Shown here in pieces: positions 24,590 through 60,825 of a stretch of 64,000 nt of DNA. Within the stretch, counting starts at the first letter, position 1. The number at the start of each line of letters is the position of its first letter. The notes beneath the pieces were generated by a model that ran no database searches, was not told the origin of the DNA, and saw nothing but the letters and a program-made list of their open reading frames with translations. The stretch is from assembly GCF_900129505.1 (NCBI RefSeq), contig NZ_LT670818.1, positions 3,505,001 through 3,569,000 of the forward strand. The letters run 5' to 3'. A program made the translations under genes and the position numbers. This DNA is from Bradyrhizobium erythrophlei. GTDB lineage: Bacteria > Pseudomonadota > Alphaproteobacteria > Rhizobiales > Xanthobacteraceae.

Positions 24590-24666
<77 letters not shown>

Positions 24667-32175: not shown

Positions 32176-32441
32176 TGCATCCCACCGGAGTTGCGTCGAT
32201 CCCGGGTGAGATCGCCACCGCGAGTTATCGCCTGCCTCGCGGACCCAGCGTCAGGCCGATCCAAGCACCAGTCCCACGCGTAGCGTGCTGAAACACGGGA
32301 GCCTGCGGGTTCCAATGCCAATCAGAAGCTGCTGGATATCTTCCGATGCAGGGCCGCTCTGACGTGGTTCGCAAATTATGGGGGTAGCGAGTGCCGCAAG
32401 CTGCTATGGTTCGGATATCTCAGGCGAGATGGAGATTTGTC

Positions 32442-33929: not shown

Positions 33930-35267
33930 TTAGATGCCGGGAATGCCGGGATCAAATGCCAAAACACTCTCCATCCATTTCGCCGCGCGAAGTGTGCGGT
34001 GGTCCTGCCGGTAGGCGCCGGCGATCTGGAGGCCGAGGGGCAGGCCGCGTTTTCCAAATCCGGCTGGGAGCGTCACGGCGGGTACGCCGAGCAAGGTCCA
34101 CGGCGCACAGAATTCCGCGTTGCCGGTGAAGCCCAGGCCTTCCGGCGCTTCGCCAAAGGCCGGCAGGGTCACGATGGCATCGAAGCCGGAGATCTCGGTG
34201 GTAAACGCCGAGCGCAGTTTCTCCTGCTGCGCCTTGGCGGCAAGATATTCCAGTGCGGTATGGGTCTTTCCGGTCTGAACCAGCGATTTCAGGTGATCGC
34301 TGCTGCGGTCGGGAAAGCGTTCGACCAGGCCCTCGAAGATCAGCGCGGCCTCGCTGGCAAGGATGGTGTTGATCGCATGCCAGTTGGCGCGGTCGAGTTC
34401 ACCGAGCTCAAGCTCTTCCAATACGGCGCCGGCGTCGCGCGACTTTGCAATCGCCGCCTCGAACAGCTGCTGCTGTTCGGGTTCCGTCCTCGACCATTTT
34501 TCAAAACGCACGATGCCGAGGCGAGGCCTCTGCAGCGGCTGCACGCCTTGCATGGCATCGATCTCAAAATCGGGAAGCGGCCGGCCATGCGGGTCACTGT
34601 CGTCAGAACCGGCCAGCAGCGACAGCGCAAAAGCGACATCGTCGACCCGTCGCGCGAACAGGCCGACGTGATCGAGCGAAGGACTGAGGGGATGCACCCC
34701 CGTGCGGGGGATCGCGCCGAAACTCGGCTTGAAACCGACGACGCCATTGAACGCCGCCGGCCGGATCACGGAGCCGAGCGTCTGCGTGCCCAGCGCTAGC
34801 GGAACGATGCCGGCCGCCACCGCCGCCGCCGAGCCCGACGACGAGCCGCCCGGCGTGTGCGCAGGGTTCCACGGATTGACCGTCGGCCCCGGATGCCGCC
34901 ACGCGAACTCCGTCGAAACCGTCTTGCCGAAGATCGTGGCGCCGAGATTGCGCAGCCGCTCGACCACCCAGGCATCGCGCTCGGGAACGTGATTGCGGTA
35001 GATCGGCGAGCCGTTGGTGGTCGGCATGTCCGAGGTCGCGATGATATCCTTGATCGCGACGGGAATGCCCGACAGCGGCCCCGGCCGGCGCGCAACGTCG
35101 CGGGGGAGATATTCGAACGCCCTCAGCCTGTGCTCGGCGGCCTCGGCCTGTTCAAGACAGGTCGTGGCGTATTGATCCGCCAGCGTGGAATCGCGCTTGA
35201 AGCGCCTCAGAAGTTCGAGGACTCCCGCGCCGGAAGGCGGTGCGGAGCGCGCAGTCGGATCGGTCAT
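33930..35267 (-). CDS. amidase (amidase-signature family)
   Basis: A 445-residue amidase. The catalytic triad is K73 (VAIKD), the cis-Ser in GGSSSGSAAAVAAG (about S142), and the nucleophile S166 (TQTLGSVIRP). It hydrolyses a linear amide or ureido bond. It is the last gene of a minus-strand run formed by an ABC importer (ATPase, permease, binding protein), so it probably acts on what that importer brings in or on its breakdown product. Ureidomalonase, biuret-type and allophanate hydrolases belong to this same superfamily. Confidence 0.9.
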   Translation of the reverse strand: MTDPTARSAPPSGAGVLELLRRFKRDSTLADQYATTCLEQAEAAEHRLRAFEYLPRDVARRPGPLSGIPVAIKDIIATSDMPTTNGSPIYRNHVPERDAWVVERLRNLGATIFGKTVSTEFAWRHPGPTVNPWNPAHTPGGSSSGSAAAVAAGIVPLALGTQTLGSVIRPAAFNGVVGFKPSFGAIPRTGVHPLSPSLDHVGLFARRVDDVAFALSLLAGSDDSDPHGRPLPDFEIDAMQGVQPLQRPRLGIVRFEKWSRTEPEQQQLFEAAIAKSRDAGAVLEELELGELDRANWHAINTILASEAALIFEGLVERFPDRSSDHLKSLVQTGKTHTALEYLAAKAQQEKLRSAFTTEISGFDAIVTLPAFGEAPEGLGFTGNAEFCAPWTLLGVPAVTLPAGFGKRGLPLGLQIAGAYRQDHRTLRAAKWMESVLAFDPGIPGI

Positions 35268-35357
35268 GCCGGCAAATCCAGGACAAACAGCTCGAACACA
35301 AACAAGCCCAAGACGGAAAGTCGCATGGAAGCCGAGCTCGCGCCAGTGTACCCGGCT

Positions 35358-36326
35358 CTATTTCATCGCCAGCGCCGGTTCGATGAATTTCTTGACGACG
35401 AAGGTCTTGTAGTCCGGCTGGGCGGCGAGGTTGCCGAGCGCGATCTGGGTATCCATCGACACTTTCAGCGCGTCCGCCGTGATGTCCACGCTCGGAGGAT
35501 AGACGCCGTCCGCGAGCATGCGCTTCACCGCGGCTTCGACCACGGCCGGATCGAGTGTCGGAAATTCCTTCTTGGCGATTTCGACGGTTTTCGCTTCGTT
35601 CCTGGTCATGAAGCGCATGGCCATTTCCATGCCGTTCACCACGCGCTGTGCGGTGTCGGGATCGACATCGTTGCGCGCGGTCACGGCGGAGAAGGCGTAG
35701 GCGCCGTACAGCTTCGGAAATCCGAGAACCACCTTCATGCCCTTGGCGACGGCCTGGTCGAGGCCGGGTTCGTACATCACGGCGATGTCGGCCTGCTTGG
35801 CGACGAAGGGGCCGGGTTCCGAACCGATCGCGACCTGGATCATGTCGACGTCGGTCTTGGCATCCATGCCGTTTTCCTTGAGCAGCTTCATGAACAGCGA
35901 GGTGCTGGTGGTCGGCATCAGGCCGGTGACGACTTTCTGGCCCTTGACGTCCTTGACGCCGTCGAATTTGAAATCCGGCGCGGTCGCGATCCAGACCGCT
36001 GCGCCATTGACGACATTGGCGATGATGTTGACCGGGGCTCCCTTCGACGCCGCGATCGCGGTCCATTCGGGTCCGTGGATCGAAAACTGCGCGCTGCCGG
36101 AAATCACGGCCGAGAGCGCGACCGTCGGTGCGCCGGCGGTTTCCTTGGTGAGATCGAGGCCCTGCTGGGTGAAGAACCCCTCGTCGATCGCGACATAGAG
36201 CGGCAGATACAGCATCGACTGGAACGCCTGCGACAGCGTGACCTTCTTGTTGTCCGCGAGCGCCGGCGTAGCGAGCAGGATAGTGATCAGCGCGGTGGCA
36301 CGGGCGATACGCGTAAGCAACGGCAT
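35358..36326 (-). CDS. ABC transporter substrate-binding protein, NMT1/THI5-like
   Basis: A 322-residue periplasmic binding protein with a Sec signal (LLTRIARATALITILLATPALA) cut after ALA at about residue 24. The mature start VTLSQAFQSMLYLPLYVAIDEGFF and the GSAQFSIHGPEW stretch are typical of the NMT1/SsuA/THI5 group, which binds pyrimidine precursors, sulfonates, nitrate or aromatic acids. GGAG precedes the ATG at 36326. Encoded with its permease and ATPase upstream and an amidase downstream. Confidence 0.88.
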   Translation of the reverse strand: MPLLTRIARATALITILLATPALADNKKVTLSQAFQSMLYLPLYVAIDEGFFTQQGLDLTKETAGAPTVALSAVISGSAQFSIHGPEWTAIAASKGAPVNIIANVVNGAAVWIATAPDFKFDGVKDVKGQKVVTGLMPTTSTSLFMKLLKENGMDAKTDVDMIQVAIGSEPGPFVAKQADIAVMYEPGLDQAVAKGMKVVLGFPKLYGAYAFSAVTARNDVDPDTAQRVVNGMEMAMRFMTRNEAKTVEIAKKEFPTLDPAVVEAAVKRMLADGVYPPSVDITADALKVSMDTQIALGNLAAQPDYKTFVVKKFIEPALAMK

Positions 36327-36357
36327 GTGATGTCTCCGTGTGTTCGGCATTGGGGCC

Positions 36358-37212
36358 TTAAACCTGTACCTGATGGGTGGTGTTCGACTGTTTCCAGGGC
36401 AGAATGGTTCGCTCGATGATGTCGATCACGTAATAGAGAGCGAATCCCATGATCATCAGCGTGAACAGGCCGACCCAGACGGTGTTGAGGTCGTACAGGC
36501 TTGAAGCCGTGTAGATCAGGTGGCCGAGCCCGCGCTGCGACGAGATGAATTCGCCGACCACGGCGCCGACCAGTCCGAAGCCGATATTGATCCGGAAGGT
36601 GGCGATGATCGACGGCAAGGTCGACGGCACCACCGCCTTGAAGAAGACCTGGTGCTTGTTCGCGCCCATCGAGATCAAGAGCGACTGCAGGTCGACATCG
36701 GCGTCTTTTGCGGCCTGGTAGGCGGCGATCAGCGCCACGATCGCAGTCAGCGATACCGACAAGGCGACCTTCGATACCAGCCCGGTGCCGAACCAGAGCA
36801 CCACGATCGGCGCCAGCGCGATCTTCGGCACGCTGTTGATGGCGACGATGAACGGCTCGACCAGCCGTGCCACGAACACCGAGTACCATAGCGCCAGCCC
36901 GAGCAATGAGCCAAAGATGGTGCCGATGACGAAGCCCAGAATGGCCTCGAATAGCGTGTACCAGGTGTCCGACAACAGCTCGCCGCTCGCGATCATCTTG
37001 GCGGCAAAACTGAAGATACCGGCCGGCGATCCCACCAGAAAGGCGGAAATCCAGCCCATGCGGACGCCGGTCTCCCAAAACGCGAAGAACAGCACGACGG
37101 CCAATGCCTGCAGTATCGCGCGGCGCAGCGGGGTATCGAAGCTCAGGGAACGCCGGCGGCGGCGCGCCTTGCGCTTCGCGAGGGGAGCCGCGCCGGGCAT
37201 GGTGAGGGTCAC
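36358..37212 (-). CDS. ABC transporter permease
   Basis: A 284-residue inner-membrane permease of the SsuC/TauC group with six helices. The basic N-terminus (KRKARRRRRS) stays in the cytoplasm. The ATPase-contact loop is seen at SLLISMGANKHQVFFKAVVPSTLPSI around residues 187-211. The start overlaps the stop of the ATPase gene by four bases. Confidence 0.92.
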   Translation of the reverse strand: MTLTMPGAAPLAKRKARRRRRSLSFDTPLRRAILQALAVVLFFAFWETGVRMGWISAFLVGSPAGIFSFAAKMIASGELLSDTWYTLFEAILGFVIGTIFGSLLGLALWYSVFVARLVEPFIVAINSVPKIALAPIVVLWFGTGLVSKVALSVSLTAIVALIAAYQAAKDADVDLQSLLISMGANKHQVFFKAVVPSTLPSIIATFRINIGFGLVGAVVGEFISSQRGLGHLIYTASSLYDLNTVWVGLFTLMIMGFALYYVIDIIERTILPWKQSNTTHQVQV

Positions 37213-37991
37213 GCTGTTTTCTCGGTCTGGATGTCGAGTTCGGCGCAGAGCGCATGGAAATAGCCCGAGAACCGGCTATCGCTGCGCGCGGCGATCGGCG
37301 AGTGGGCGTCGATTTCGATGTCATGCACGATCTTGACGCGAGCGGGACGTCCTGAGAGCACGACGACGCGCTTCGACAGCGCGACCGCCTCGTCGATGTC
37401 GTGCGTTACCAGGATGACGGTCTTGTGATAGGTCTCCACCGCGTCCTTCAGCACGCCCTCGAGATAGAGGCGCGTCTGGTAGTCCAGCGCGGAAAACGGC
37501 TCATCGAGCAGCAGGATATCCGGATCCATGATGAGGGTGCGGATCAGGGCCACGCGCTGGCGCATGCCGCCGGACAGGGTTTTCGGATAGGCGTTCTCGA
37601 AGCCGGCGAGACCAAATCCCCTGAGATATTCGCGCGCCTTGCCTTCGGCCTCGATGCGATCGACGCCGCGGGTCTCCAGGCCCAGCAGCACGTTTCCGAG
37701 CACGGTGCGCCAGGGAAACAGCAGGTCCTTCTGCATCATGTAGCCGACGCGGCCGCGCAGGCTTTCGATCTCCTCGCCGCGATAATGCAGCGAACCGGAA
37801 TCGGGCTCGAGCAGGCCGGCGATGATGTTGAAGATCGTGGTCTTGCCGCAGCCCGACGGGCCGATGATGCTGACGAAGTCGCGCTCGTTGATGGCAAAGG
37901 AGAGGTCGTCGAGCACGCGGACCTCGCCGGCTTTGCCGGCAAAAGATTTTCGGACGTTGCGAACGCCGAGCTGGGCGGGAGGTGGCTGCAT
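37209..37991 (-). CDS. ABC transporter ATP-binding protein
   Basis: A 260-residue ATPase with Walker A GPSGCGKTT, Q-loop MMQKDLLFPWRT, signature LSGGMRQRV, Walker B ILLLDEP and the H-switch LVTHDIDEA. The FPWRT wording marks the nitrate/sulfonate/taurine class. The start at 37991 is chosen over 38105, since the upstream extension is intergenic. It is the first gene of the minus-strand importer-amidase operon and is divergent from the amidohydrolase gene. Confidence 0.92.
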   Translation of the reverse strand: MQPPPAQLGVRNVRKSFAGKAGEVRVLDDLSFAINERDFVSIIGPSGCGKTTIFNIIAGLLEPDSGSLHYRGEEIESLRGRVGYMMQKDLLFPWRTVLGNVLLGLETRGVDRIEAEGKAREYLRGFGLAGFENAYPKTLSGGMRQRVALIRTLIMDPDILLLDEPFSALDYQTRLYLEGVLKDAVETYHKTVILVTHDIDEAVALSKRVVVLSGRPARVKIVHDIEIDAHSPIAARSDSRFSGYFHALCAELDIQTEKTA

Positions 37992-37998
37992 CGCCGAT

Positions 37999-38015
37999 AT
38001 ACAGGCAACTTGTAT
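37999..38015. promoter_or_regulatory. candidate LysR-type operator
   Basis: ATACA at 37999-38003 and TGTAT at 38011-38015 form an inverted repeat with a seven-base spacer, a form often bound by LysR regulators. It lies in the 191-base gap between the divergent importer and amidohydrolase operons, and a LysR gene is encoded nearby at 39464. Binding is inferred from position only. Confidence 0.35.
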
Positions 38016-38182
38016 GCCACAGAAGAGAGTGAAAAAGGCTTTTGTTATCAGCCGATTAGAGCGGAGGCGTGGGCTGCTCGAGACACGTGCCGCCTGTTTA
38101 GGCAACGGTTCGATCCGCCACGACGGTTCCCAACGCGAACTGTTCGGCTACATTGGCGCCGTGCGCGGCACGGAGTCTCTCG

Positions 38183-39451
38183 ATGAAACTGGATATTCTC
38201 GTCAAGAATGTTGCCGTGTGGGGCCATGAAGTCCTGTGCGATCTCGGAATCGCCGGCGGCCGTTTCGTCAGCCTCGGTCAGGCTGGCGCTGCCGCGAATG
38301 CCGCCCTCACGCTCGACGCGGAGGGGCGCATGGCCGTTCCCGGATTTGTCGAGCCGCATATTCATCTGGACAAGGCGCTGATATCGGAGCGCGCGCCGGT
38401 CAATGTCTCGGGCACGCTCACCGAAGCGATTGAAATTCTCTGGGAGATCAAGCGCAATTACACGGTGGAGGAAATTGCCGATCGCGCCTCGCGCGTGCTC
38501 GCGCAGGCCCTGGGCCACGGCGTCACGAGGCTGCGCACCCATGTCGACGTCGATCCGATCGGAGGCACGCGCCCGGCCGAAGGACTGATCCGCGCCCGTG
38601 AGCGCTTTCGCGACCTGATGGATATCCAGATCGTCGCGTTTCCGCAGGAAGGCATCGTCAAATCCCCCGGCACGGAAGCCTTGATGCGCGAGGTCATGAA
38701 AGCCGGTGTCGACGTCGTCGGCGGTATGCCCTTCAACGAAAATTCACCGGAAGACAGCCGCCGCCATATCGAAATCGCCTTCGACATCGCCAAGGAGTTC
38801 GACGCCGACATCGACATGCACGTCGATGAGACCGACGATCCGATGGCGCGAACACTCGAAGTGCTGGCCGAATTGACCATCAAGAACGGCTGGCAGGGCC
38901 GGGTCACCGCCGGCCACACCTGCGCGCTGGCGAGCTATCCCAGGAACTATGCCGATCACGTCATCGATCGTCTCCGCGAAGCCAATGTCAACATGATCGC
39001 CAACCCGGCCACCAACCTGATGCTGCAGGGCCGCCTCGACGATTTTCCCAAACGTAGGGGCGTGACGCAGGTCAAGGAATTGCTGGCCGCGGGCGTCAAC
39101 GTCGCCTGCGGGCAGGATTGCGTGCATGACACCTTCTATCCCTTTGGCCAGAACGATCCGCTCGAAATCGCGTTCCTGCTGTGCCACGCATCGCAGATGA
39201 GCCAGCCGGGAGAGATTCTCACCGTGATGGACATGGTCACCGGCAACGGCGCAAGGGCATTGCGCGTTCCGGATTTTCGCGTGGCGCCAGGTGGCGTGGC
39301 GGATCTGGTGGTGCTGGATGCCCGCGACGCGCGCGAGGCATTCGCCACCAGGGCGCCGCGCCGCTGGGTGATCCGCAAGGGCAAACTGATCGCCGAAACC
39401 AGGCTGGAGACGCACCGCTATTTTGATATTCAGGCGGCGCCGGCCAGATAA
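38183..39451 (+). CDS. cytosine deaminase-like amidohydrolase
   Basis: A 422-residue metal-dependent amidohydrolase of the cytosine deaminase group. Metal ligands are H59 and H61 in EPHIHLDKA, a His in DMHVDETDD, one in TAGHTCAL, and the Asp in GQDCVHDTFYPFG. The group includes cytosine, isocytosine, creatinine and triazine deaminases, all of which act on a cyclic amidine. It is the first gene of a plus-strand run with LysR, HyuA, HyuB and a ring-opening hydrolase. Deamination of a pyrimidine or of creatinine would feed the later enzymes. Confidence 0.85.
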   Translation: MKLDILVKNVAVWGHEVLCDLGIAGGRFVSLGQAGAAANAALTLDAEGRMAVPGFVEPHIHLDKALISERAPVNVSGTLTEAIEILWEIKRNYTVEEIADRASRVLAQALGHGVTRLRTHVDVDPIGGTRPAEGLIRARERFRDLMDIQIVAFPQEGIVKSPGTEALMREVMKAGVDVVGGMPFNENSPEDSRRHIEIAFDIAKEFDADIDMHVDETDDPMARTLEVLAELTIKNGWQGRVTAGHTCALASYPRNYADHVIDRLREANVNMIANPATNLMLQGRLDDFPKRRGVTQVKELLAAGVNVACGQDCVHDTFYPFGQNDPLEIAFLLCHASQMSQPGEILTVMDMVTGNGARALRVPDFRVAPGGVADLVVLDARDAREAFATRAPRRWVIRKGKLIAETRLETHRYFDIQAAPAR

Positions 39452-39463
39452 GGATTTTTGAAT

Positions 39464-40357
39464 TTGGATTTTCGCCAATTGCGCTATGCGCTTTCGGTCT
39501 ACAAGGAGCGCAGCTTTACCAAGGCGGCGAAGCGGCTGAATATCTCGCAGTCGGCCGTCAGCGAACAGGTCAAGCTGCTCGAAGAGGAAATCGGCTTCGA
39601 GCTGTTTCGACGGACCTCGCGCGGCATCGAGGCCACCGACCGCGGCCGCACCTTCCTGTACGAATCCGAACGGGTGATGGGCGATCTGCTCAGCCTGTCG
39701 GACACTGCCCGGCGGCTGCGCGGCGCACCGCAAGACACGCTGAAGCTCGGCATGGGATCGGGCATGGCGCAGATCTTCATTCCGCGCATGTTCGCCGATC
39801 TCAGGAATAATCTACCCGGCGTGCGGCTGGAAATCCTGACGGCGCCGACCAAGAATATCTTCAACGAGCTGCACGAAGAGCGGCTCGACGTGGGGATCGC
39901 GATCGAGTCGGATCCCGAGCGGCTGCCGGCCGGACTGGTGTTCGAGCGCCTGATCGACGCCGAGATGGTGTTGATCACCCATCCCAAGCACGCGCTGGCG
40001 CGATCGAAGCAGCCGGTCGATATCGGCCGCCTGGTCGCAGACCCCATCGTCATGAGCGAGTTGACGGTGGGCTACGGCCAGGTAGTGCTGTCGCTATTCA
40101 CCGATCTCGGCATCAGGCCCAATATTCTGGCGGTCGTCGACAATATCGAGACCATCAAGATGATCGTGCAATCCGAGGGCGGCATCGCCATCGTGCCGCG
40201 GGCCTGTGCGGAAAATGAAGTCACGCTGGGATTATTGAAGGCACTGTCCATCGCGCCGGCCCGCAACGTCGTTTTCAGCCTGTTTCGCCGCCGCGAACCG
40301 ATGTCGCGACGCAAGGAATCGGCGTTGCTGAACTTGCAACATATGCTGAAAGCATAG
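39464..40357 (+). CDS. LysR family transcriptional regulator
   Basis: A 297-residue LysR protein. The N-terminal helix-turn-helix reads SFTKAAKRLNISQSAVSEQVKLLEEEIG at about residues 18-45, followed by the linker helix and a type 2 periplasmic-binding-like effector domain. The start is a TTG at 39464, nine bases after AAGGA; another TTG at 39458 lies too close to that site. It sits inside the catabolic gene run and most likely controls this run and the divergent importer, with a pathway intermediate as co-inducer. Confidence 0.9.
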   Translation: MDFRQLRYALSVYKERSFTKAAKRLNISQSAVSEQVKLLEEEIGFELFRRTSRGIEATDRGRTFLYESERVMGDLLSLSDTARRLRGAPQDTLKLGMGSGMAQIFIPRMFADLRNNLPGVRLEILTAPTKNIFNELHEERLDVGIAIESDPERLPAGLVFERLIDAEMVLITHPKHALARSKQPVDIGRLVADPIVMSELTVGYGQVVLSLFTDLGIRPNILAVVDNIETIKMIVQSEGGIAIVPRACAENEVTLGLLKALSIAPARNVVFSLFRRREPMSRRKESALLNLQHMLKA

Positions 40358-40490
40358 GCATTCTGACGCGGGTTGGCTGGATCGGATTTTCCGATACCCC
40401 TATCGATATTCGGCTTTTGACTTGGCGGAACAGGTTGACCCATTCTGCACGCTCCTCGATGACCCCTGATCCGCTGGAGTAATGCGAAGC

Positions 40491-44470: not shown

Positions 44471-44500
44471 ACCCGGGACAAGCGAGAAAGTTTTCAACCG

Positions 44501-45595: not shown

Positions 45596-45696
45596 GACGA
45601 CGCGCAGAACCGGCACGTTCCTTGCTTAAAAAGTAGGCGTCTTGCCGAGCCGCTTGGCCGAAAGGCGCTGATACAATTGAATGGCAGGAGTGCGGC

Positions 45697-46671: not shown

Positions 46672-46678
46672 GGCGCCC

Positions 46679-47503: not shown

Positions 47504-47510
47504 GCGCGCG

Positions 47511-48266: not shown

Positions 48267-48278
48267 CGGAAATTCGAT

Positions 48279-50545: not shown

Positions 50546-50560
50546 TATCCCGACGCGTAC

Positions 50561-52903
50561 CTAGCGCTTCGCATTCTTTGTGAGCTCGAACAGCCGGCTC
50601 GGACTGAGCGGAATCTCCAAAAGCTCCACGCCGCGGGCTTTCAGGTCGAGCGCGTCTTCGATCGCCTGCGCGAACAGCGGGCCGCCGGGAATGGCTCCGG
50701 CTTCGCCGGCGCCCTTGATGCCCATCGGGTTGAGCGGCGACTTTGTTACGGTGTGGCCGAGCTCCATGCGCGGCACTTCCATCGCCGTCGGCAGCAAGTA
50801 GTCGGCGAGCGAGGCGTTGAGCAGTTGCCCCTGGTCGTCGAACACCAGTTTCTCGTAGAACGCGTTGCCGATACCCTGCGCGACGCCGCCGTGAATTTGT
50901 CCGGCCAGGATCATCGGGTTGATCACGGTGCCGCAGTCATGCACCACGACATATTTCAGGATTTTCAGGTCGAAGGTGCGCGGATCCATCTCGACGATCA
51001 TGGCGTGGACGCCATTGGCCGTCGCGCCCATCTTGGGGCCGAAATACTGGGTCGATTCGAGGCCGGGCTCGGTGCCCGGCTCGACCGCGCCGCGCATCGG
51101 ATTGGCCTGGTTGGCGAGATCGCCGAGTTTGACGAATTTGCCGGGGACCCCGACGATGGAAACCTTGCCGTCCTCGAGCACGAGGTCATCCTCGGCGCAT
51201 TCAAAGAGATCGCTGGCGAGTTTCAAGGCCTTCTTGCGCACCACTTTTGCAGCTTCGTTGACGGCGTTGCCCGCGACTACGGCGCCGCGGCTGGCAAAGG
51301 TGCCGGCGCCCCAATAGAACTGGTCGGTATCGCCGGTGACGACGTCGACATCGGCGACCTCGACCCCAAGCTGGTCGGCGGCGATCTGGGCAAACACCGT
51401 GAAGTGTCCCTGGCCCTGGGTGCCGATCCCGGTGGCGACGCTGACCTTGCCGTTGGATTGCACCTGGACCTTTGCCCCTTCATAGGGGCCGATGCCGGTG
51501 CCTTCGACATAGCAGGCGACGCCGATGCCGAGATGGCGGCCTTGCAGCCGCGCCGCCGCCTGTTCGTCCTTGAAAGTCCCGTAGCCGATCGCGTCCAGTG
51601 CCATGTCGAGCACCGGCTCGTAATTGCCGCTGTCGTATTCGAGCACCTCGAAATCCTGGTAGATGATGTCATTGCTGTAGGGGAACGCATCGGGCGGAAT
51701 CAGATTCCGCCGCCGGATTTCGGCAGGATCGATGTTCAGTTCATGCGCGGCGAAATCGAGCAGGCGCTCCATCACGAACACGCCGTGCTGGCGTCCGGCG
51801 CCGCGATAGGGCGTGACGATCGGCAAATTGGTGAACACCTGCGTGAACGTGCTGTCGTAGTTCGGCACGACATAGGGGCCGAGCAGGGTGCACTGGCTGT
51901 TGATCGGCACTGTCAGCCCATAGGGATCGTAGGCGCCGCCGTCGTGCAGGAACACGTCCTTGATGCCGAGGATCTTTCCGTCCCTGGAAAGCGCGATCTC
52001 GGCGTCGTGGATCTGCCCGCGCTCGTGGGTGGTGGCGAAGAAATGCTCCAGCCGGTCCTCGATCCATTTGATCGGCCGGTTCAGTTTCATCGACACCCAG
52101 GGAAGCAGCACCTCCTCGGGGTAGAACATCATGATCTTCGGTCCGAAACCGCCGCCGACGAAGGGCGCGATGACGCGAACCTGTCGCTCGTTGAGGCCGA
52201 GCATGCCGGCGAGACCGTTGCGGACGAACACCGGCGCCTGGGTAGTGTCCCAGATCGTCATCTGGTTGGCGCGGCCATCCCATTGCGCGACCACGCCGCG
52301 GGTTTCGATCGGCGAGGAAATGCCGTGCTCGTACCAGAAACGGCGCCTGATGATGCAATCGGCCTTGGCGGCGGCCGCGGCATAATTGCCCCTGGCCTGG
52401 CGGACATGCGCCGACACGTTGGAGCCGACATCGTCATGCACCAGCGCCGATCCGGCGCTTAAGCCTTGTTCCAGATCGACCACTGCCGGAAGCTGTTCGA
52501 GTTCGACATCGATGTCGTCGAGCGCGTCCTCGGCGATGTAGCGGCTTTCCGCGATCACGATCACCAGCGGTTCGCCGACGTGGCGAACCTTGTCTTTCGC
52601 CAGCGGGACCTGGGTGCGCTCGTGGAAGACGATGCCGTCGATCGGGGGCGGCGGCACCAGGATCGGACCGGGTTGCCAGTAGGCGCCGAGGTCGCCGGCG
52701 ACATAGGCGGCAACGACGCCGGGACGCTGCAGCGCCTTCGAAACATTGATCTTCAGGATCCGTGCATGCGCCACCTGGCTGCGCAGGAACGCGGCGTGCA
52801 GCATGCCCGGCAGTTCGACGTCATCGATGAACAGGGCCTGGCCGGTGAGAAGCCGGCGGTCCTCGTTGCGCCTGATCGGTTCGCCGAAGGTGCGGGTGGA
52901 CAT
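50561..52903 (-). CDS. molybdenum hydroxylase large subunit (xanthine dehydrogenase family)
   Basis: A 780-residue molybdopterin subunit. Conserved loops are VGGGFGPK, TPYRGAGRQHG, GTQGQGHFTVF and GIKGAGEAG with the catalytic Glu near E734. The loop reads PYRGAGR and not AYxCSFR, so this is not a form I carbon monoxide dehydrogenase. The enzyme hydroxylates a carbon next to a ring nitrogen or an aldehyde carbon. Uracil/thymine dehydrogenase, which makes barbiturate, is a molybdenum enzyme of this kind. The start at 52903 (MSTRTFGEPIRRNEDRRLL) lies six bases after the small subunit. Confidence 0.92.
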   Translation of the reverse strand: MSTRTFGEPIRRNEDRRLLTGQALFIDDVELPGMLHAAFLRSQVAHARILKINVSKALQRPGVVAAYVAGDLGAYWQPGPILVPPPPIDGIVFHERTQVPLAKDKVRHVGEPLVIVIAESRYIAEDALDDIDVELEQLPAVVDLEQGLSAGSALVHDDVGSNVSAHVRQARGNYAAAAAKADCIIRRRFWYEHGISSPIETRGVVAQWDGRANQMTIWDTTQAPVFVRNGLAGMLGLNERQVRVIAPFVGGGFGPKIMMFYPEEVLLPWVSMKLNRPIKWIEDRLEHFFATTHERGQIHDAEIALSRDGKILGIKDVFLHDGGAYDPYGLTVPINSQCTLLGPYVVPNYDSTFTQVFTNLPIVTPYRGAGRQHGVFVMERLLDFAAHELNIDPAEIRRRNLIPPDAFPYSNDIIYQDFEVLEYDSGNYEPVLDMALDAIGYGTFKDEQAAARLQGRHLGIGVACYVEGTGIGPYEGAKVQVQSNGKVSVATGIGTQGQGHFTVFAQIAADQLGVEVADVDVVTGDTDQFYWGAGTFASRGAVVAGNAVNEAAKVVRKKALKLASDLFECAEDDLVLEDGKVSIVGVPGKFVKLGDLANQANPMRGAVEPGTEPGLESTQYFGPKMGATANGVHAMIVEMDPRTFDLKILKYVVVHDCGTVINPMILAGQIHGGVAQGIGNAFYEKLVFDDQGQLLNASLADYLLPTAMEVPRMELGHTVTKSPLNPMGIKGAGEAGAIPGGPLFAQAIEDALDLKARGVELLEIPLSPSRLFELTKNAKR

Positions 52904-52908
52904 GGCAG

Positions 52909-53391
52909 TCAGCCCCGCATCCGCATCGCGGCCGTCATCACCGCATCGACGATGTTCTGGTAGCCGGTACAGCGGCACAGATTGCCCGACAGCGCCTCGC
53001 GCACCTCGTCTTCGCTGGGTGAGGTGTTTTCATCGAGAAAGGCCGTCATGGTCATGAGAATGCCGGGCGTGCAGTAGCCGCATTGCAGGCCGTGATGGTC
53101 GTGCATCGCCTGCTGCAACGGGTGGAATTCGCCATCCTTGCCCGCCAGGCCTTCGATGGTCGAAATCTCGTGGCCCTTGGCCTGTACGGCCAGCATCAGG
53201 CAGGAACGAATGGGCTCGCCATCCAGCAGCACGGTGCAGGCGCCACAGACGCCATGCTCGCAGCCGACATGGGTGCCGGCCAGCGCCAGTTCGTGGCGGA
53301 GGAAATCGCTGAGCAGCATGCGCGATTCGACGCGGCGGGTATAACGCACCCCATTCACCGACAGCGTGATGTCGTGGTGGTCAATGTCCAT
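52909..53391 (-). CDS. molybdenum hydroxylase small subunit, two 2Fe-2S clusters
   Basis: A 160-residue iron-sulfur protein. The plant-type cluster is held by C44, C49, C52 and C64, and the second cluster by C104, C107, C139 and C141 (QCGYCTPG and CRCTGYQ). It passes electrons from the molybdenum site to the FAD subunit. The gene lies between medium and large subunit genes; its start overlaps the end of the medium gene by 11 bases. Confidence 0.96.
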   Translation of the reverse strand: MDIDHHDITLSVNGVRYTRRVESRMLLSDFLRHELALAGTHVGCEHGVCGACTVLLDGEPIRSCLMLAVQAKGHEISTIEGLAGKDGEFHPLQQAMHDHHGLQCGYCTPGILMTMTAFLDENTSPSEDEVREALSGNLCRCTGYQNIVDAVMTAAMRMRG

Positions 53392-54256
53392 CGCATGCCC
53401 GCTGGTAAGCCGTCTGCAGCGCGCGTTCGGCGAGAACGCCCGCGACGTGGCGCTGATAATCCGCGGTCGCCTGGACGCTGCCGGCCGGATCGATCATGGC
53501 CTGTACCAATGCAGCGACGTCTTCGAGTGCGTGCGGGGTTACCGCGTGTCCGATCAGGACATCGGCGGCCGAACTGGCATTGACCGGCGTCTCGGCGACG
53601 CCGCAAAAAGCCAGGCGAACCTCGCTGCATTTGTCTTCATTGCCGAGCGTCACCATCGCCGCGACGCCGGCGATGGCAAAGTCGCCGCGCCGGCGCGCGA
53701 TCTCCATGAAGCAGGACCCGGTGCGCGGCTTCGACAACGGCAACCCCACTTCCACAAGCATTTCCTCAGGCGCCAGATCGGTCGTCAGCGCGCCCACGAA
53801 AAAATCGGAAGCGGCAATCCACCGTTCCTGTTTTGCGGTCTGAACGCGGAACCGGGCGCCGAGCGCCACGGCGATCGCGGGAAGCTCGGAGGCCGGATCG
53901 GCGTGCGAAAGATTGCCGCCGATCGTGCCGCGATTTCGGATCTGCGGGTGCGCGATATGCGGCAAGGCCTCGGCGATCAACGGAAACGCACGTGCGAAGC
54001 CCGCATCGCGCTGCAGCGCCCGGTAGCGCGTCAGCGGCCCAAGGCGAACCGTATCGGTGGAGGCGCCGATACCGGCGAGATCCCCGATCTCGTTGATGTC
54101 GATCAGGATCGCTGGCCGGGCCAGCCGGAAATTCATCGCCGGCAGCAGGCTCTGTCCGCCGGCCAGAAATTTCGCGTCGTCGCCATGTTCCGCCTTGAGC
54201 GCGAGCGCCTGCGCGATCGAATGGGCGGCGATATATTTGAAGGGGGCAGGCTTCAT
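53381..54256 (-). CDS. molybdenum hydroxylase FAD-binding (medium) subunit
   Basis: A 291-residue FAD subunit. FAD-binding motifs are FLAGGQSLLPAMNFRLA at about residues 35-51 and RNRGTIGGNLSHADPASELPA at about 109-129. It forms the electron outlet of the complex. The start at 54256 (MKPAPFKY) is the family start. It is the first gene of the minus-strand operon and is divergent from an ABC importer operon. Confidence 0.94.
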   Translation of the reverse strand: MKPAPFKYIAAHSIAQALALKAEHGDDAKFLAGGQSLLPAMNFRLARPAILIDINEIGDLAGIGASTDTVRLGPLTRYRALQRDAGFARAFPLIAEALPHIAHPQIRNRGTIGGNLSHADPASELPAIAVALGARFRVQTAKQERWIAASDFFVGALTTDLAPEEMLVEVGLPLSKPRTGSCFMEIARRRGDFAIAGVAAMVTLGNEDKCSEVRLAFCGVAETPVNASSAADVLIGHAVTPHALEDVAALVQAMIDPAGSVQATADYQRHVAGVLAERALQTAYQRACDGH

Positions 54257-54419
54257 GGCGCTCGCGGGCAAAGCAACGGAGACGCGGTTCTCTCACCGCA
54301 CTGCAAAGTATGCGGCGGCCCTTCGCGCAAGTCAAAAACCGAGCCGTTTTCGGGCCATCTGAAAATCCGATAAGGGCATGTTTGGCCCCGATGGTTGTCG
54401 CTGCCCATTAAAATCTCCG

Positions 54420-54475
54420 CATGCGCAAACATTGAGCGCGCCAATCGCAGCGGCGTTTGTCACTATTTGCGCATG
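54420..54475. promoter_or_regulatory. perfect 10-base inverted repeat between divergent operons
   Basis: CATGCGCAAA at 54420-54429 and TTTGCGCATG at 54466-54475 are exact inverted copies 46 bases apart (about 4.4 helical turns). They lie in the 318-base gap between the molybdenum hydroxylase operon and the importer operon, where a shared regulator would act. Apart from this repeat I see nothing else in the gap. Confidence 0.45.
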
Positions 54476-54574
54476 GCGTTGCAAATGCCGAACTCATTGA
54501 AGCCAGGTGATCCCCGCGTTACGCTGCGGATGGACGGGCGACAATCGTTCGTCGCGCCGATCGCGCCGGTACGC

Positions 54575-55399
54575 ATGAGCAACGAAGCCGATGCCAGGGT
54601 TGAACCAGTGCCGCTGCCGCAACGCCTGGCGGTCGATGTTCGCAATGTTTCACTGACGTTCGAGACCGGCGACGGCAAGGTCGACGCGCTGTCCGACGTC
54701 AGCCTGCAGATCGCCGACGGCGAATTCGTTTCCTTCATCGGCCCGTCCGGCTGCGGCAAGACCACGATGCTGCGGGTGATCGCGGATCTGCAGCAGCCGA
54801 CATCGGGCGCGCTTCTGGTCAACGGCATGAGCGCGGAACAGGCGCGGCTGGAGCGCCGCTACGGCTACGTGTTCCAGGCGCCCGCTTTGTTCCCGTGGCG
54901 TACGATCGAGAAGAACCTGAAGCTGCCGCTGGAGATCATGGGATTTTCCGATAGCGAGCAGCAGCAGCGCGCGGCGCGTTATCTGGCGCTGGTCAATCTC
55001 ACCGGCTTCGAACGGAAGTTTCCCTGGCAATTGTCCGGCGGCATGCAGCAGCGGGTGTCGATCGCGCGCGCCCTGTCGTTCGATCCGGCGCTGTTGCTGA
55101 TGGACGAGCCGTTCGGCGCGCTCGATGAAATCGTCCGCGATCACCTCAACGAGCAATTGCTGCAATTGTGGGACAAGACCGGCAAGACGGTGCTGTTCGT
55201 CACCCATTCCATCCCCGAAGCGGTGTTCCTGTCGACCAGGATCGTGGTGATGTCACCGCGCCCGGGGCGGATCATCGACGTCATCGATTGCAACTTTCCG
55301 CGCGACCGCACCCTGGAAATTCGCGAGACGCCGGAGTTTCTGAAGGTCGCGCAGCGTGTCCGGGTCGGCCTTCGGGCGGGACATTGCTATGACGAGTAG
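54575..55399 (+). CDS. ABC transporter ATP-binding protein
   Basis: A 274-residue ATPase (from the start chosen here) with Walker A GPSGCGKTT, Q-loop FQAPALFPWRT, signature LSGGMQQRV, Walker B LLLMDEP and the H-switch FVTHSIPEA. Starts at 54395, 54473 and 54530 are also open; 54575 (MSNEADARVEPVPL) gives the usual distance to the first beta strand, but none of the starts has a clear ribosome site. It begins a four-gene importer operon with two permeases and a binding protein. Confidence 0.88.
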   Translation: MSNEADARVEPVPLPQRLAVDVRNVSLTFETGDGKVDALSDVSLQIADGEFVSFIGPSGCGKTTMLRVIADLQQPTSGALLVNGMSAEQARLERRYGYVFQAPALFPWRTIEKNLKLPLEIMGFSDSEQQQRAARYLALVNLTGFERKFPWQLSGGMQQRVSIARALSFDPALLLMDEPFGALDEIVRDHLNEQLLQLWDKTGKTVLFVTHSIPEAVFLSTRIVVMSPRPGRIIDVIDCNFPRDRTLEIRETPEFLKVAQRVRVGLRAGHCYDE

Positions 55400-56315
55400 C
55401 GCGCTCACTCTCCCGGTCTCGGGTGCCGGTGCATGGCGGCGCCATCCGCTGGTCGAGCGTTACGCACCCGTCGTCACAATCGTGCTGGCCCTGATCGCGA
55501 TCTGGTACGTCGCCGCATTGCTGATGAACCTGTCGCTGGTGCGCGACGGCTTTGAGCGGGAGGAGGCGCCTTACACCGTCTCCGACCTGATCGCGGGCAC
55601 GATGACGGCCGAGCGGCCGCGGCTGCCGGCACCGCACCAGGTGATCGCAGCCTTCGCCGATTCGGTGTTCGGCTATGCGCCCACCGCGCCACGCAGCCTC
55701 GTCTATCATTCCATGGTGACGCTGTCGGCGACGCTGCTTGGCTTCATGCTCGGCGCGGTGCTCGGCATCGCGCTCGCGCTGATGATCGTGCACAGCCGGG
55801 TATTGGAGAAGAGCCTGCTGCCATGGATCATCTGCTCGCAGATGGTGCCGATCCTGGCGCTGGCGCCGATCTTCGTCGTGGTGCTCGGCGCGATGGGGTT
55901 GCAGGGACTGCTGCCGAAGTCGATCATTTCGGCCTATCTGTGCTTCTTCCCGATCACGATCGGGATGGTGAAGGGCTTTACTGCGCCTGATCCGATGCAG
56001 CTTGATCTGATGCGGACCTGGTCGGCGACCTCGAGGCAGGTGCTATCCAAGCTGCGCTGGCCGTCGGCTGTCCCTTATCTCTTCGCCAGCCTCAAGGTCG
56101 CGATCTCGATTTCGCTGATCGGTGCCATCGTCGCCGAATTGCCGACCGGCGCCGAAGCCGGCATCGGCGCGCGGCTGCTGGCCGGCTCCTATTATGGCCA
56201 GACCGTCCAGATCTGGTCGGCGCTGCTGGCATCGGCGATTCTGGCCTCCGGCCTGATCGGGCTGGTGAGCCTGACCGAACGGATCGTTGCGCGGCGAATG
56301 GGGACGCGGCCATGA
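55389..56315 (+). CDS. ABC transporter permease
   Basis: A 308-residue permease. One helix at about residues 28-46 is followed by a roughly 60-residue outer loop (NLSLVRDGFEREEAPYTVSD), then six helices. The contact loop reads MRTWSATSRQVLSKLRWPSAVPYL near residues 214-237. The start at 55389 overlaps the ATPase stop by 11 bases; its own stop overlaps the next permease by four. Confidence 0.9.
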   Translation: MTSSALTLPVSGAGAWRRHPLVERYAPVVTIVLALIAIWYVAALLMNLSLVRDGFEREEAPYTVSDLIAGTMTAERPRLPAPHQVIAAFADSVFGYAPTAPRSLVYHSMVTLSATLLGFMLGAVLGIALALMIVHSRVLEKSLLPWIICSQMVPILALAPIFVVVLGAMGLQGLLPKSIISAYLCFFPITIGMVKGFTAPDPMQLDLMRTWSATSRQVLSKLRWPSAVPYLFASLKVAISISLIGAIVAELPTGAEAGIGARLLAGSYYGQTVQIWSALLASAILASGLIGLVSLTERIVARRMGTRP

Positions 56316-57436
56316 ATCCGCGACGGCTCAGATTGGGATATATCCTGGCCGTGGCCGGCATGCTGCTTGCCCTGGTGTTGCCGCTCTCGACGCTGGGGGC
56401 CGCCCCCTTGCCGGCGCGGCCGATGCTGCTGGCATTGTCGCTTGCGGCGGCACTGCTGTTCGCCGTTGCCGCCTGGGCAGGTGGGTCGCGTTCCATCGCC
56501 TTCGGCTTCGCCGGCGTTTTCTGCGTCGCAGTGACCGCGCTTGTCCTGCTGCGCGACGCAAGCGTCAGCGGTTCGGCCGGCGCGGGTTTCTGGGCCATGG
56601 TGCTGGCGGTCTGGCTCGCCGCCGCGCTCGGCGTGATGCAACTTGCCTCGGCGCGTCCGCGCGACGAGCGCGCGCGGCGCGCGCTCAATCTTGCGGTTCC
56701 GCTGCTGTTCGGCGCGGCGGTGTTTTATCTCTGGGAAGTATGGGTACGCGGCTTCGGGGTATCCCCGGTGATCATGCCGGCGCCGAGCGCAGCGGCGGCG
56801 AGGTTCGCGTCGTCGCTGGCCGTGCTCGGCGGCGACTTCGTGCAGACCTTCATTCGCGGCGTGCTGATCGGATATGTGATCGGCTGCGGCGCGGGGCTCC
56901 TGGTTGCGATCGTTGCGCAGCGTTTTGCCTTTCTCGGTCGCGGCCTGCTTCCGCTCGGCAATTTCTTTTCGGCACTGCCGCTGGTCGGCGTGGCGCCGAT
57001 CATGGTGATGTGGTTCGGTTTCGACTGGCCGTCGAAGGCCGCGGTGGTTGCGCTGGTGACGTTCTTCCCGATGCTGGTGAACACGCTCGCCGGCCTTTCC
57101 GCGTCCGGGCACATGGAACGCGATCTGATGCGATCCTATGGCGCGGATCATCGCCAGACCCTCGCAAAGCTCTATCTGCCCGCCGCGCTGCCGTTCATTT
57201 TCAATGCGCTGAAGATCAACGCCACACTGGCGCTGATCGGTGCGATCGTTGCCGAATTCTTTGGAACGCCGACGCAGGGCATCGGCTTTCGCATCTCCAC
57301 GGAAGCGGGACGAATGGCGCTCGACATGGTGTGGGCGGAAATCGCGCTCGCCGCGATCGCGGGAATGGCTTTCTACGGACTTGTCGCGCTCGCCGAGCGC
57401 GCGACCACTTTCTGGCATCCATCCTATCGGACCTGA
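56312..57436 (+). CDS. ABC transporter permease with extra N-terminal membrane domain
   Basis: A 374-residue permease. Residues 1-115 hold four hydrophobic segments that are not part of the usual fold; then the standard part begins at PLLFGAAVFYLWEVWVRGFGVSPVIMPAPS with the contact loop LMRSYGADHRQTLAKLYLPAALPFIF near residues 273-296. It starts by an ATGA overlap with the first permease, so both probably form a heterodimer. The additional helices have no known task. Confidence 0.87.
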   Translation: MNPRRLRLGYILAVAGMLLALVLPLSTLGAAPLPARPMLLALSLAAALLFAVAAWAGGSRSIAFGFAGVFCVAVTALVLLRDASVSGSAGAGFWAMVLAVWLAAALGVMQLASARPRDERARRALNLAVPLLFGAAVFYLWEVWVRGFGVSPVIMPAPSAAAARFASSLAVLGGDFVQTFIRGVLIGYVIGCGAGLLVAIVAQRFAFLGRGLLPLGNFFSALPLVGVAPIMVMWFGFDWPSKAAVVALVTFFPMLVNTLAGLSASGHMERDLMRSYGADHRQTLAKLYLPAALPFIFNALKINATLALIGAIVAEFFGTPTQGIGFRISTEAGRMALDMVWAEIALAAIAGMAFYGLVALAERATTFWHPSYRT

Positions 57437-57469
57437 CTCGGCGGGTCCTAACGAGCTTCGGAGTATCGA

Positions 57470-58456
57470 ATGAAGAGAATAGCGGCAATCGCAGCAGGCA
57501 TGACAATGGGTTTGTCGCTGGCGACAGCGCAAGCGGCGGACACGGTCACCATCCAGCTGAAATGGGTCGCGCAGGCCCAGTTCGCCGGGTACTTCGTGGC
57601 CAAGGAGAAGGGATTCTACAAGGACGCCGGCCTCGACGTCACGATCAAGCCGGGCGGCCCGGACGTGGCGCCGCCGCAGGTAATCGCCGGCGGCGGCGCC
57701 GACGTCGTGGTCGACTGGATGCCGTCGGCATTGGCGTCGCGCGAGAAGGGCGTGCCGCTGGTCAACATCTCGCAGACCTTCAAGAAGTCCGGCCTGGAGC
57801 TGACCTGCCGGGCCGACACCGGCATCAAGAAACCCGCCGACTTCAAGGGCAAGACCATCGGGATCTGGTACGGCGGCAACGAGTATCCGTTCCTGTCCTG
57901 GATGTCGAAGCTCGGCTACAAGACCGACAGCTCGCCGGGCGGCATCAAGATCATCAAGCAGGGCTTCAACGTCGATCCGATCCTGCAGAAGCAGGCCGAT
58001 TGCGTTTCGACCATGACCTACAACGAATATTGGCAGGTCATCGATGGCGGCTTCAAGCCGAGCCAGCTGGTGGTCTTCAAATATGAGGACGAGGGCGTTG
58101 CCACGCTGGAGGACGGTCTGTGGGTGCTGGAAAAGAATCTCAAGGACCCGGCGTTCGTGACCAAGATGGCGAAATTCGTCAAGGCCTCGATGAAGGGCTG
58201 GGAATACGCCAAGGCCCATTCGGACGAAGCGGTGAAGATCATCCTGGCCGGCGACTCCACGGGCGCGAAAACCGAGAAGGACCAGAAGCGGATGATGGGC
58301 GAAATCGCCAAGCTGCTCGGTCCCGCCGACGGCAAGCTCGACGTCAAGGATTACGACCGTACGGTTGCGACCCTGATGTCCGGCGGATCGGATCCCGTCA
58401 TCACCAAGAAGCCGGAAGGCGCCTATACCTTCGCCGTCTATGAGGCGATGAAATAA
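57470..58456 (+). CDS. ABC transporter substrate-binding protein, NMT1/THI5-like
   Basis: A 328-residue binding protein. The signal peptide ends at AQAADT (about residue 24). The mature start VTIQLKWVAQAQFAGYFVAKEKGFYKDAGLDV is the typical NMT1/THI5 entry, related to proteins that bind hydroxymethylpyrimidine or its precursors. PDVAPPQVIAGGGADVVVDW and WYGGNEYPFLSW are further family stretches. It completes the third importer. Confidence 0.9.
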   Translation: MKRIAAIAAGMTMGLSLATAQAADTVTIQLKWVAQAQFAGYFVAKEKGFYKDAGLDVTIKPGGPDVAPPQVIAGGGADVVVDWMPSALASREKGVPLVNISQTFKKSGLELTCRADTGIKKPADFKGKTIGIWYGGNEYPFLSWMSKLGYKTDSSPGGIKIIKQGFNVDPILQKQADCVSTMTYNEYWQVIDGGFKPSQLVVFKYEDEGVATLEDGLWVLEKNLKDPAFVTKMAKFVKASMKGWEYAKAHSDEAVKIILAGDSTGAKTEKDQKRMMGEIAKLLGPADGKLDVKDYDRTVATLMSGGSDPVITKKPEGAYTFAVYEAMK

Positions 58457-60558: not shown

Positions 60559-60825
60559 CGCGGCCTCTCATTTCTTGTCGAGGCCGATATTGCAAGATTC
60601 GTGCTGCGCCGCACGCCGTTCCCGTCATCGTGGTAAAATTCGGGTGCGGTCGACAGCGCCAAGAATGCGCGCCGCGCAGGCGATTGCCGGCGCTTTAATC
60701 AGCCTGCAAATTCCTGGCAACAGCAACGCGGTCTTTACTGTCCTGATTAACGCCTGGTCAGCCAAGTGCGGTCTATAGCTGTCCGGGATCGAATTATAGC
60801 CCGGGGAACAGCAGCCACTTTGGCC

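Follow-up and report, generated by a model that had tools for sequence, protein, structure and literature searches.

Which ring compounds are broken down by the enzymes encoded at positions 33,930-58,456 of a 64,000-nucleotide stretch of the Bradyrhizobium erythrophlei genome (the window, meaning the whole stretch analysed), and why does an ATP-dependent cyclic amide hydrolase (HyuAB) stand there between a LysR-type regulator and a barbiturase-like hydrolase (Bar)? An earlier note on this DNA had listed the genes of the island, and all genes it named were confirmed at these positions by the Pfam and NCBIfam scans on which the gene calls are based. Comparison with related loci makes it fairly probable that the island is controlled by the LysR-type regulator and serves to break down pyrimidine-type rings oxidatively, a second ring opener being HyuAB; it probably provides nitrogen. 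The oxidative pyrimidine pathway as such is already known, and we infer that the island belongs to it. As cited in the accessible parts of PMC3758960 and PMC4051656, the route of Rhodococcus erythropolis (Soong et al. 2001/2002) leads from uracil via barbiturate and ureidomalonate to malonate and urea; the former source dates its description to the 1950s and calls it rare. The features that carry the argument are the following (nt, nucleotides; Mo, molybdenum).

39458..40357, plus strand: LysR-type regulator, presumed controller of the operator (Pfam; homologue in 28 of 80 Bar loci)
40381..40395, plus strand: operator ATCGGATTTTCCGAT, a palindrome of T-N11-A type before hyuA, conserved there in relatives
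40417..40422, plus strand: TTGACT, putative -35 of the hyuA promoter, 21 nt past the operator
40482..42584, plus strand: HyuA, ATPase subunit of the ATP-dependent cyclic amide hydrolase (Pfam; DTGGTFTD and DAGGT motifs)
about 42581..44470, plus strand: HyuB subunit (Pfam Hydantoinase_B, 450 bits)
44501..45595, plus strand: Bar, barbiturase-like ring-opening hydrolase of the AtzD/TrzD/barbiturase family (66% identity to PDB 5hwe; N-H-K-V-D)
45697..48266, plus strand: importer 2, with NMT1-type binding protein, ATPase and permease (Pfam)
48279..49688, plus strand: AmdB, amidase-signature enzyme, proposed ureidomalonase (Pfam; homologue in 35 of 80 Bar loci)
50561..52978, minus strand: CoxL, Mo-binding subunit with PYRGAGR loop (Pfam; a further ATG lies 75 nt inside)
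52909..53391, minus strand: CoxS, [2Fe-2S] subunit (Pfam)
53381..54271, minus strand: CoxM, FAD subunit (Pfam)
54307..54312, minus strand: CATACT, putative -10 of coxM, 17 nt after TTGACT
54330..54335, minus strand: TTGACT, putative -35 of coxM, 21 nt past the operator
54357..54371, minus strand: operator copy ATCGGATTTTCAGAT (minus-strand reading) before coxM
54395..58456, plus strand: importer 3, with ATPase, two permeases and NMT1-type binding protein (Pfam)

Identity of the ring opener

The earlier assignment of Bar to the barbiturase/cyanuric acid hydrolase family holds and can be narrowed to barbiturase-like. In the PDB it comes closest to barbiturase 5hwe (494 bits, 66% identity), which we take to be from Rhodococcus; cyanuric acid hydrolases score at most 324 bits, and two of them, 6bum and AtzD, are 47% and 41% identical to Bar. 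According to the accessible part of PMC3758960, five residues separate the activities: Arg195/Thr321/Arg325/Gly345/Gly346 in AtzD-type enzymes, and Asn195/His321/Lys325/Val345 with Ser or Ala at 346 (AtzD numbering) in group VI, which includes a characterised barbiturase. The Bar signature, N-H-K-V-D, matches group VI at four of the five. Among 83 distinct relatives sharing 60% identity or more, 81 carry it as well and two, from Nonomuraea and Embleya, have N-H-K-V-A; R[TES]RGG is found in all 30 distinct family members below 60%, including the second copy of the own genome; these counts omit the window's own copy (L002), the refetched duplicates L126 and L131, and identical sequences. Seven catalytic Ser/Lys/Arg positions are kept in Bar and in 84/84 relatives. 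For the position of Arg188, the accessible part of PMC4051656 gives glutamine in barbiturases; the aligned residue is Asn in both 5hwe and Bar. Because of Asp at 346, Bar is called a barbiturase-like sister clade rather than a strict member of group VI.

Records with close barbiturase-like genes carry the labels Alpha-, Beta- and Gammaproteobacteria, Rokuibacteriota and Acidimicrobiia. Since the cyanuric acid hydrolase model NF052395 accepts Bar above its cut-off, automatic annotation may misname members of this clade.

Gene neighbourhoods of Bar homologues

By its own criterion, the earlier note would have been refuted if the Mo hydroxylase, hyuAB and the ring opener were never linked elsewhere. 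They are linked in other genomes, and since the same genes stand together in many of these, the grouping is not a chance of the own genome. Of 108 loci detected through their similarity to Bar, the best 80 (75-95% identity) served as the Bar loci, and partners were counted as homologues in the fetched stretch above set identity thresholds. Short metagenome contigs make up many of these loci, and the Fisher tests take no account of the dependence between related sequences. The most frequent partners were the importer-2 binding protein (37), AmdB (35), HyuB (32), LysR (28) and the deaminase (15), followed by CoxL (10), AllF/FdrA-type genes (10), AllG (9), uracil phosphoribosyltransferase (UPRT, 6), malonyl-CoA decarboxylase (MCD, 5) and MatB-like genes (4). 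HyuB lies directly upstream of Bar, with a gap below 1.3 kb, in 27/80 loci. In the 36 loci whose flanks reach 7.9 kb or more on both sides of Bar (full-flank loci), the importer-2 binding protein is present in 17/18 with HyuB and 2/18 without (p 6e-7), and AmdB, FdrA and HyuB are all absent at the set thresholds in seven.

The order of genes varies. Bar-AmdB-CoxM-CoxS-CoxL is found in L105 and deaminase-Bar-AmdB-MCD-MatB in L095, and L042, L047 and L140 hold the co-directional array HyuA-HyuB-CoxM-CoxS-CoxL-PF00860 permease-Bar. This array lacks Bar in L139, with an amidase after the permease. HyuA-HyuB-CoxM-CoxS-CoxL (39-62% identity) also occurs in L141, L143 and L145, where Bar is absent from the fetched stretch; in two of these genomes, G443 (L143/L144) and G404 (L141/L142), a Bar homologue lies on another contig. 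A stretch of about 27 kb in Embleya (L128) holds hyuAB, deaminase, NCS1 permease, PucR, NmrA, AA_kinase, Bar and CoxLSM. Around Bar of Nonomuraea (L127), about ten scanned proteins were mostly shikimate-type or other, with no close pathway partner among them. In a CoxL tree of 34 sequences with few outgroups, copies beside Bar-AmdB (L105), beside hyuAB only (L139, L141, L143, L145) and beside both fall into one clade with support 1.0; L080, L087, L128 and an additional L119 copy belong to it too. A single type of Mo enzyme that supplies either opener would fit this shared clade.

AmdB and FdrA occur together in only 1/36 full-flank loci (21 with AmdB, 7 with FdrA; p 0.013). This near-exclusion would be expected if both AmdB and the AllF/AllG-type proteins acted on ureidomalonate. 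AllF-type genes are linked to Bar in 10/80 loci, some with AllH and AA_kinase, and stand at the place of AmdB in L057, which supports AmdB as candidate ureidomalonase. In E. coli, AllFGH acts as oxamate carbamoyltransferase and converts oxalurate to carbamoyl phosphate and oxamate, as stated in the accessible part of PMC11326118. By analogy, a phosphorolytic, energy-conserving fate of ureidomalonate is possible at loci with such genes (as in L057, L064 and L100); the window has none. Bar-linked AllF/FdrA-AllG-type genes were noted at L100 11186-18781 and L064 10578-18130 and in L057, L082, L103, L104 and L109; some loci of this type add AllH, AA_kinase, MCD and MatB-like genes.

A promoter element common to hyuA and coxM

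Aligning the LysR-hyuA gap with the gap between coxM and importer 3 revealed a palindrome followed by a putative -35 box, of the form ATCGGA-N3-TCCGAT, 21 nt, TTGACT, before both hyuA and coxM in the window. A T-N11-A dyad is the classical shape of a LysR-type site. It occurs at both genes in the window and at hyuA, coxM or Bar in relatives, and the LysR-type regulator is predicted to act by binding this shared operator.

The promoter counts omit L002, L126, L131 and L147, do not include L149-L154, and the site count in relatives omits the window. With up to one mismatch, the operator was found within 300 bp before hyuA in 26/38 cases (shuffled mean 0.05), an enrichment that partly reflects discovery, because it was an alignment of the same loci that first brought the operator to light. 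At the same tolerance it precedes 5/16 coxM genes of at least 55% identity (shuffled 0.00). The corresponding counts within 300 bp were 4/88 for Bar, 2/34 for LysR and 1/48 for the importer-2 binding protein, and none for AmdB (0/45), Perm2 (0/44), HyuB (0/41) and the deaminase (0/19). Overall, 46 sites occur in 1.96 Mb of fetched relatives compared to 5-14 in three shuffles. Four of the 16 coxM genes lie directly behind hyuB and therefore need no promoter of their own; for the other 12, the best site has one (n=5), two (n=2), three (n=1) or 4-5 mismatches (n=4).

The composite element, defined as operator with up to three mismatches, 21 nt and TTGACT with up to one mismatch, gave 37 matches in 2.02 Mb including the window, with 6-10 anywhere in three shuffles. 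Of these matches, 32 lie 70-195 bp before an aligned start, namely that of hyuA (28), coxM (3) or Bar (1). Operator, 21 nt and a weaker -35 also precede Bar in L062, L070, L073 and L090, where Bar is apart from hyuB, and in L070 the same arrangement precedes the gene of a Mo hydroxylase of another type. At coxM the spacing is 20 or 22 nt in L032, L033, L114 and L120, and L123 and L136 are without a good -35; the element before hyuA is missing in L139, L141, L143 and L145. The sites before coxM and Bar, like the spacing of 21 nt, depend less on this discovery than the enrichment before hyuA does.

Within the window, the surroundings of importer 1, the amidase AmdA and the deaminase hold no operator within two mismatches, and for this reason these genes may be accessory. 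The earlier proposal of a pyrimidine island is partly supported, by the barbiturase-like Bar, the Mo hydroxylase linked with it in relatives, the adjacent amidase, the pyrimidine-type importer 3 and the malonyl-CoA decarboxylase and urease genes found elsewhere in the genome.

Relatives without the barbiturase-like gene

A survey of 248 family genomes, drawn from a larger group, found an orthologue of CoxL in 16 (78-100% identity, next match 49%), one of HyuB in 36 (76-100%, next 54%) and both together in 14 (Fisher p 1.4e-11); G004 and G010 have CoxL without HyuB. AmdB was counted in 30, leaving out weaker matches (50-51%) in G053, G079, G100 and G133. A PF09663 gene lies less than 1.3 kb from HyuB in 27/36 genomes, and of the other nine, G184 and G182 are poorly judged due to contig ends. 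CoxL lies on the same contig as Bar, HyuB or AmdB, at up to about 20 kb, in 9/16 genomes (G000, G169, G208, G161, G189, G230, G095, G244, G004); in the remaining seven, which are multi-contig assemblies, it is on another contig, and that of G010 adjoins importer-2 genes. Among 289 same-class genomes including the own, relatives were found for Bar in 6 (E 1e-125), HyuB in 6 (E 1e-190) and CoxL in 5 (E 1e-225).

In G088, G124, G189 and G230 no Bar lies between hyuB and importer 2 (gaps of 109-158 bp), and the PF09663 search gave no match in these genomes (G230 is 87% complete). Their AmdB is split over two frames in G088 and G189 and full-length by tblastn in G124 (with one TGA) and G230. The one-contig 9.1 Mb genome G095 has the order LysR-hyuAB-importer 2-NmrA-CoxLSM-importer 3, an island from which both Bar and AmdB are missing; the two other Bar-family members of this genome are about 45% identical to Bar. 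In G191, hyuAB and importer 2 are accompanied by short Bar-like remnants, and Bar-AmdB-deaminase lies on another contig. Given these gene contents, hyuAB is separable from Bar-AmdB. It is separable from CoxMSL as well, since G095, G189 and G230 retain a CoxL orthologue along with hyuAB and none was found in G088, G124 and G191. Since Bar, or Bar and AmdB in G095, is missing in relatives, the island genes do not form one obligatory linear route.

Further arrangements were noted in these genomes. In G191 (L132 2112-9654), LysR-hyuAB-importer 2 lies beside nitrite-reductase, molybdopterin-reductase and siroheme genes, neighbours that suggest nitrogen scavenging. Immediately upstream of LysR-hyuAB, G095 (L112 3272-8330) carries genes for an amidohydrolase and for another Mo hydroxylase of a different kind, the latter made up of a FAD gene and a fused FeS-Mo gene. 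In G117 (L138 7759-14255), CoxL and importer 3 are direct neighbours, and no match to CoxS or CoxM separates them.

Homology of the other enzymes and importers

HyuA and HyuB domains are both present, and HyuA keeps both phosphate-binding motifs (DxGGTxTD and DxGGT type). Among PDB entries HyuA matches an N-methylhydantoinase best (474 bits), and the CapA and CapB models score 508 and 192, both below the cut-off of 1000. Enzymes of this family open lactams, hydantoins and 5-oxoproline, and an action on oxidised indoleacetate has been proposed, according to the accessible part of PMC8453981.

The best PDB match of CoxL is quinoline 2-oxidoreductase (532 bits), followed by a CO dehydrogenase (508 bits). 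With this closest match and the PYRGAGR loop, hydroxylation of an N-heterocycle by CoxMSL is the natural reading of the sequence. The active-site loop of form I aerobic CO dehydrogenase is AYXCSFR; CoxL as a CO dehydrogenase was set aside owing to its PYRGAGR loop and an NF040766 score of 929.6, under the cut-off of 950.

The nearest PDB relative of the importer 3 binding protein binds N-formyl-4-amino-5-aminomethyl-2-methylpyrimidine (58 bits), so that the earlier suggestion of transporters for pyrimidine-type compounds stands for importer 3, whose best relative binds a pyrimidine precursor. For the CodA-like enzyme (Deam), cytosine deaminase is the best PDB match (281 bits), with N-isopropylammelide hydrolase at 195 bits.

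Proposed pathway and alternative explanations

In the proposed pathway, for which we infer the substrates and the order of the steps, ring compounds would enter via importers 3 and 2, CoxMSL would oxidise a uracil-type ring to a barbiturate-type ring, Bar would open it to ureidomalonate and AmdB would release malonate and urea, to be used by the malonyl-CoA decarboxylase and urease encoded elsewhere in the genome. HyuAB would act as an ATP-driven opener of a ring poorly handled by Bar, for example 5-methylbarbiturate from thymine or another CoxMSL product. It is possible, if doubtful, that CoxMSL and HyuAB alone form a complete, barbiturase-independent, ATP-driven oxidative pyrimidine route, in which HyuAB would open the barbiturate-type product of CoxMSL, perhaps 5-methylbarbiturate from thymine.

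Several observations weigh against the pathway as proposed. Residue 346 of Bar is not the Ser or Ala of group VI, and NF052395 accepts Bar with 449 bits at a cut-off of 360. HyuB and CoxL show no association among the 36 full-flank loci (p 0.60). A site within one mismatch is lacking upstream of hyuA in 12 of 38 cases, four of the 12 coxM genes not directly behind hyuB (L124, L125, L133, L137) have no recognisable operator (4-5 mismatches), and the window by itself shows no excess of the operator pattern (6 matches, 5.35 expected). Deam has Cys beside the catalytic Asp, and Phe where the matched cytosine deaminase has Trp, positions that presumably have a role in substrate choice; because of these differences, cytosine is not assured as its substrate. 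The relatives without Bar in the island (G088, G124, G189, G230, G095) point in the same direction.

Other explanations differ mainly in the substrate they assume. The genes could serve another N-heterocycle, for example a purine- or flavin-derived bicyclic compound, hydroxylated by CoxMSL, with HyuAB opening one ring and Bar the other. The two ring openers and the quinoline-oxidoreductase-like Mo hydroxylase share a promoter element, hyuAB-coxMSL also occurs away from Bar, and PucR and NCS1-permease genes lie nearby in Embleya, all of which would suit such a compound. However, MCD, MatB-like and UPRT genes beside Bar in some relatives indicate uracil-type substrates, and Bar-AmdB loci without hyuAB exist, so that we regard this explanation as unlikely. 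A route for creatinine or hydantoin, in which a CodA-like enzyme would yield N-methylhydantoin, HyuAB would open it with ATP, an amidase would finish the breakdown and Bar and CoxMSL would be employed elsewhere, appears very unlikely. CodA-family enzymes can take creatinine, the closest structural relative of HyuA fits, and deaminase, hyuAB and an amidase co-occur in the island, as do deaminase and hyuAB in L080, L087 and Embleya L128. Against it, the deaminase occurs in 2/18 full-flank loci with HyuB and 9/18 without (p 0.03), the promoter element of hyuAB is common to coxM, and the arrays of L042, L047, L139 and L140 include a PF00860 permease, which is of the uracil/xanthine type.

HyuAB and importer 2 might instead be an independent unit for scavenging lactams or hydantoins that merely shares a nitrogen-type regulation with the other genes. 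LysR-hyuAB-importer 2 does occur with no adjoining Bar and no CoxL orthologue at all in G088, G124 and G191, in the last beside the nitrite-reductase, Mo-reductase and siroheme genes, but the co-directional five-gene hyuAB-coxMSL in seven loci (L042, L047, L139, L140, L141, L143, L145) and the closeness of HyuB to a PF09663 gene in 27/36 family genomes make this rather improbable. Finally, degradation of cyanuric acid (s-triazine) would agree with the protein family of Bar and with the passed NF052395 cut-off. Bar was rejected as a cyanuric acid hydrolase since it carries N-H-K-V-D rather than R-T-R-G-G, and a separate paralogue in the own genome (C1:792533-793618; L001, L122), which does carry R-T-R-G-G, fits the model better (522 compared to 449 bits). 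As AmdB also scores under the cut-offs of the AtzE models in NCBIfam, a cyanuric acid island is extremely improbable.

Further genes and genome setting

Further genes of the island are listed below; the NmrA-family gene between AmdB and CoxL was absent from the earlier list.

33930..35267, minus strand: AmdA, amidase-signature enzyme, accessory candidate (Pfam Amidase, 294 bits)
35358..38105, minus strand: importer 1, with NMT1-type binding protein, permease and ATPase (Pfam)
38153..39451, plus strand: Deam, CodA-like amidohydrolase/deaminase (Pfam Amidohydro_3; ATG at 38183)
49679..50545, minus strand: NmrA-family NAD(P)-binding protein (Pfam; adjoins CoxL in several relatives)

The window is part of a 9.18 Mb single-contig genome. 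The HyuB of the island was found in 1/17 same-genus genomes, the own genome being that one, and for this reason the island is patchy across the genus and probably acquired. Its G+C content of 0.63-0.64 is close to that of the flanks (0.61-0.63), and a tRNA scan gave a single match, tRNA-Met at 24590, outside the island. In line with the earlier note, no UPRT was found in the window: tblastn with the protein of one relative gave no match at an E limit of 1e-8. Two XdhC-type genes lie elsewhere in the genome, as do genes above cut-off for malonyl-CoA decarboxylase (one) and urease alpha (three); no MatB-like gene was found beside the MCD gene at E 1e-15. The dihydropyrimidinase cut-off is passed at three places, two of which were inspected; three frames beside one of these two gave no NCBIfam match at E 1e-60. 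A reductive pyrimidine dehydrogenase was not seen in the own genome, where no family search was aimed at it.

At the border of the island, window positions 32391-33563 encode a baeRF-family protein (Pfam baeRF family 11). After the island, positions 59575-62649 encode a TctC-type binding protein and an AMP-binding enzyme, which shares only some 26% identity with the MatB-like protein from a relative.

Relation to known systems and significance

The island shares with the pathway of R. erythropolis a barbiturase-type opener, a Mo hydroxylase, an amidase and genes for malonate and urea use elsewhere in the genome. It differs in the added HyuAB, the three NMT1-type importers and the shared LysR-type operator, in the Asp at position 346 of Bar, and in that no UPRT was found in the window. 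From group VI of the Toblerone-fold family, as far as it is described in the accessible part of PMC3758960, Bar differs at 346 and shares the other four specificity residues and the seven catalytic positions. HyuAB shares domains and motifs with the CapAB/N-methylhydantoinase/IaaCE family and differs in its CapA/CapB scores below cut-off and in its linkage to a Mo hydroxylase and a barbiturase. The indoleacetate IaaCE cluster also has a Mo hydroxylase partner. Its HyuAB-type ATP-dependent enzyme is likewise proposed to open an oxidised N-heterocycle, according to the accessible part of PMC8453981, and the ring is a different one. The earlier statement that HyuAB lies outside the published route stands, and can now be refined by the operator-promoter that hyuA shares with coxM and by the separate hyuAB-coxMSL array. 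No precedent for the HyuAB branch, the shared promoter or the AllFG variant was found in the literature searched, which omits most subscription papers.

To our knowledge, neither the Mo-dependent uracil dehydrogenase nor ureidomalonase has a firmly assigned sequence, and the island and its relatives offer co-regulated gene candidates for both. Since the promoter element is defined, the regulon can be searched for in other genomes. The island also brings to light a probable second, ATP-dependent ring opener behind the same promoter element, and the reading favoured here predicts a barbiturase-independent branch. If this branch exists, several lineages could dispense with barbiturase and ureidomalonase while their remaining genes stay under the same LysR promoter.

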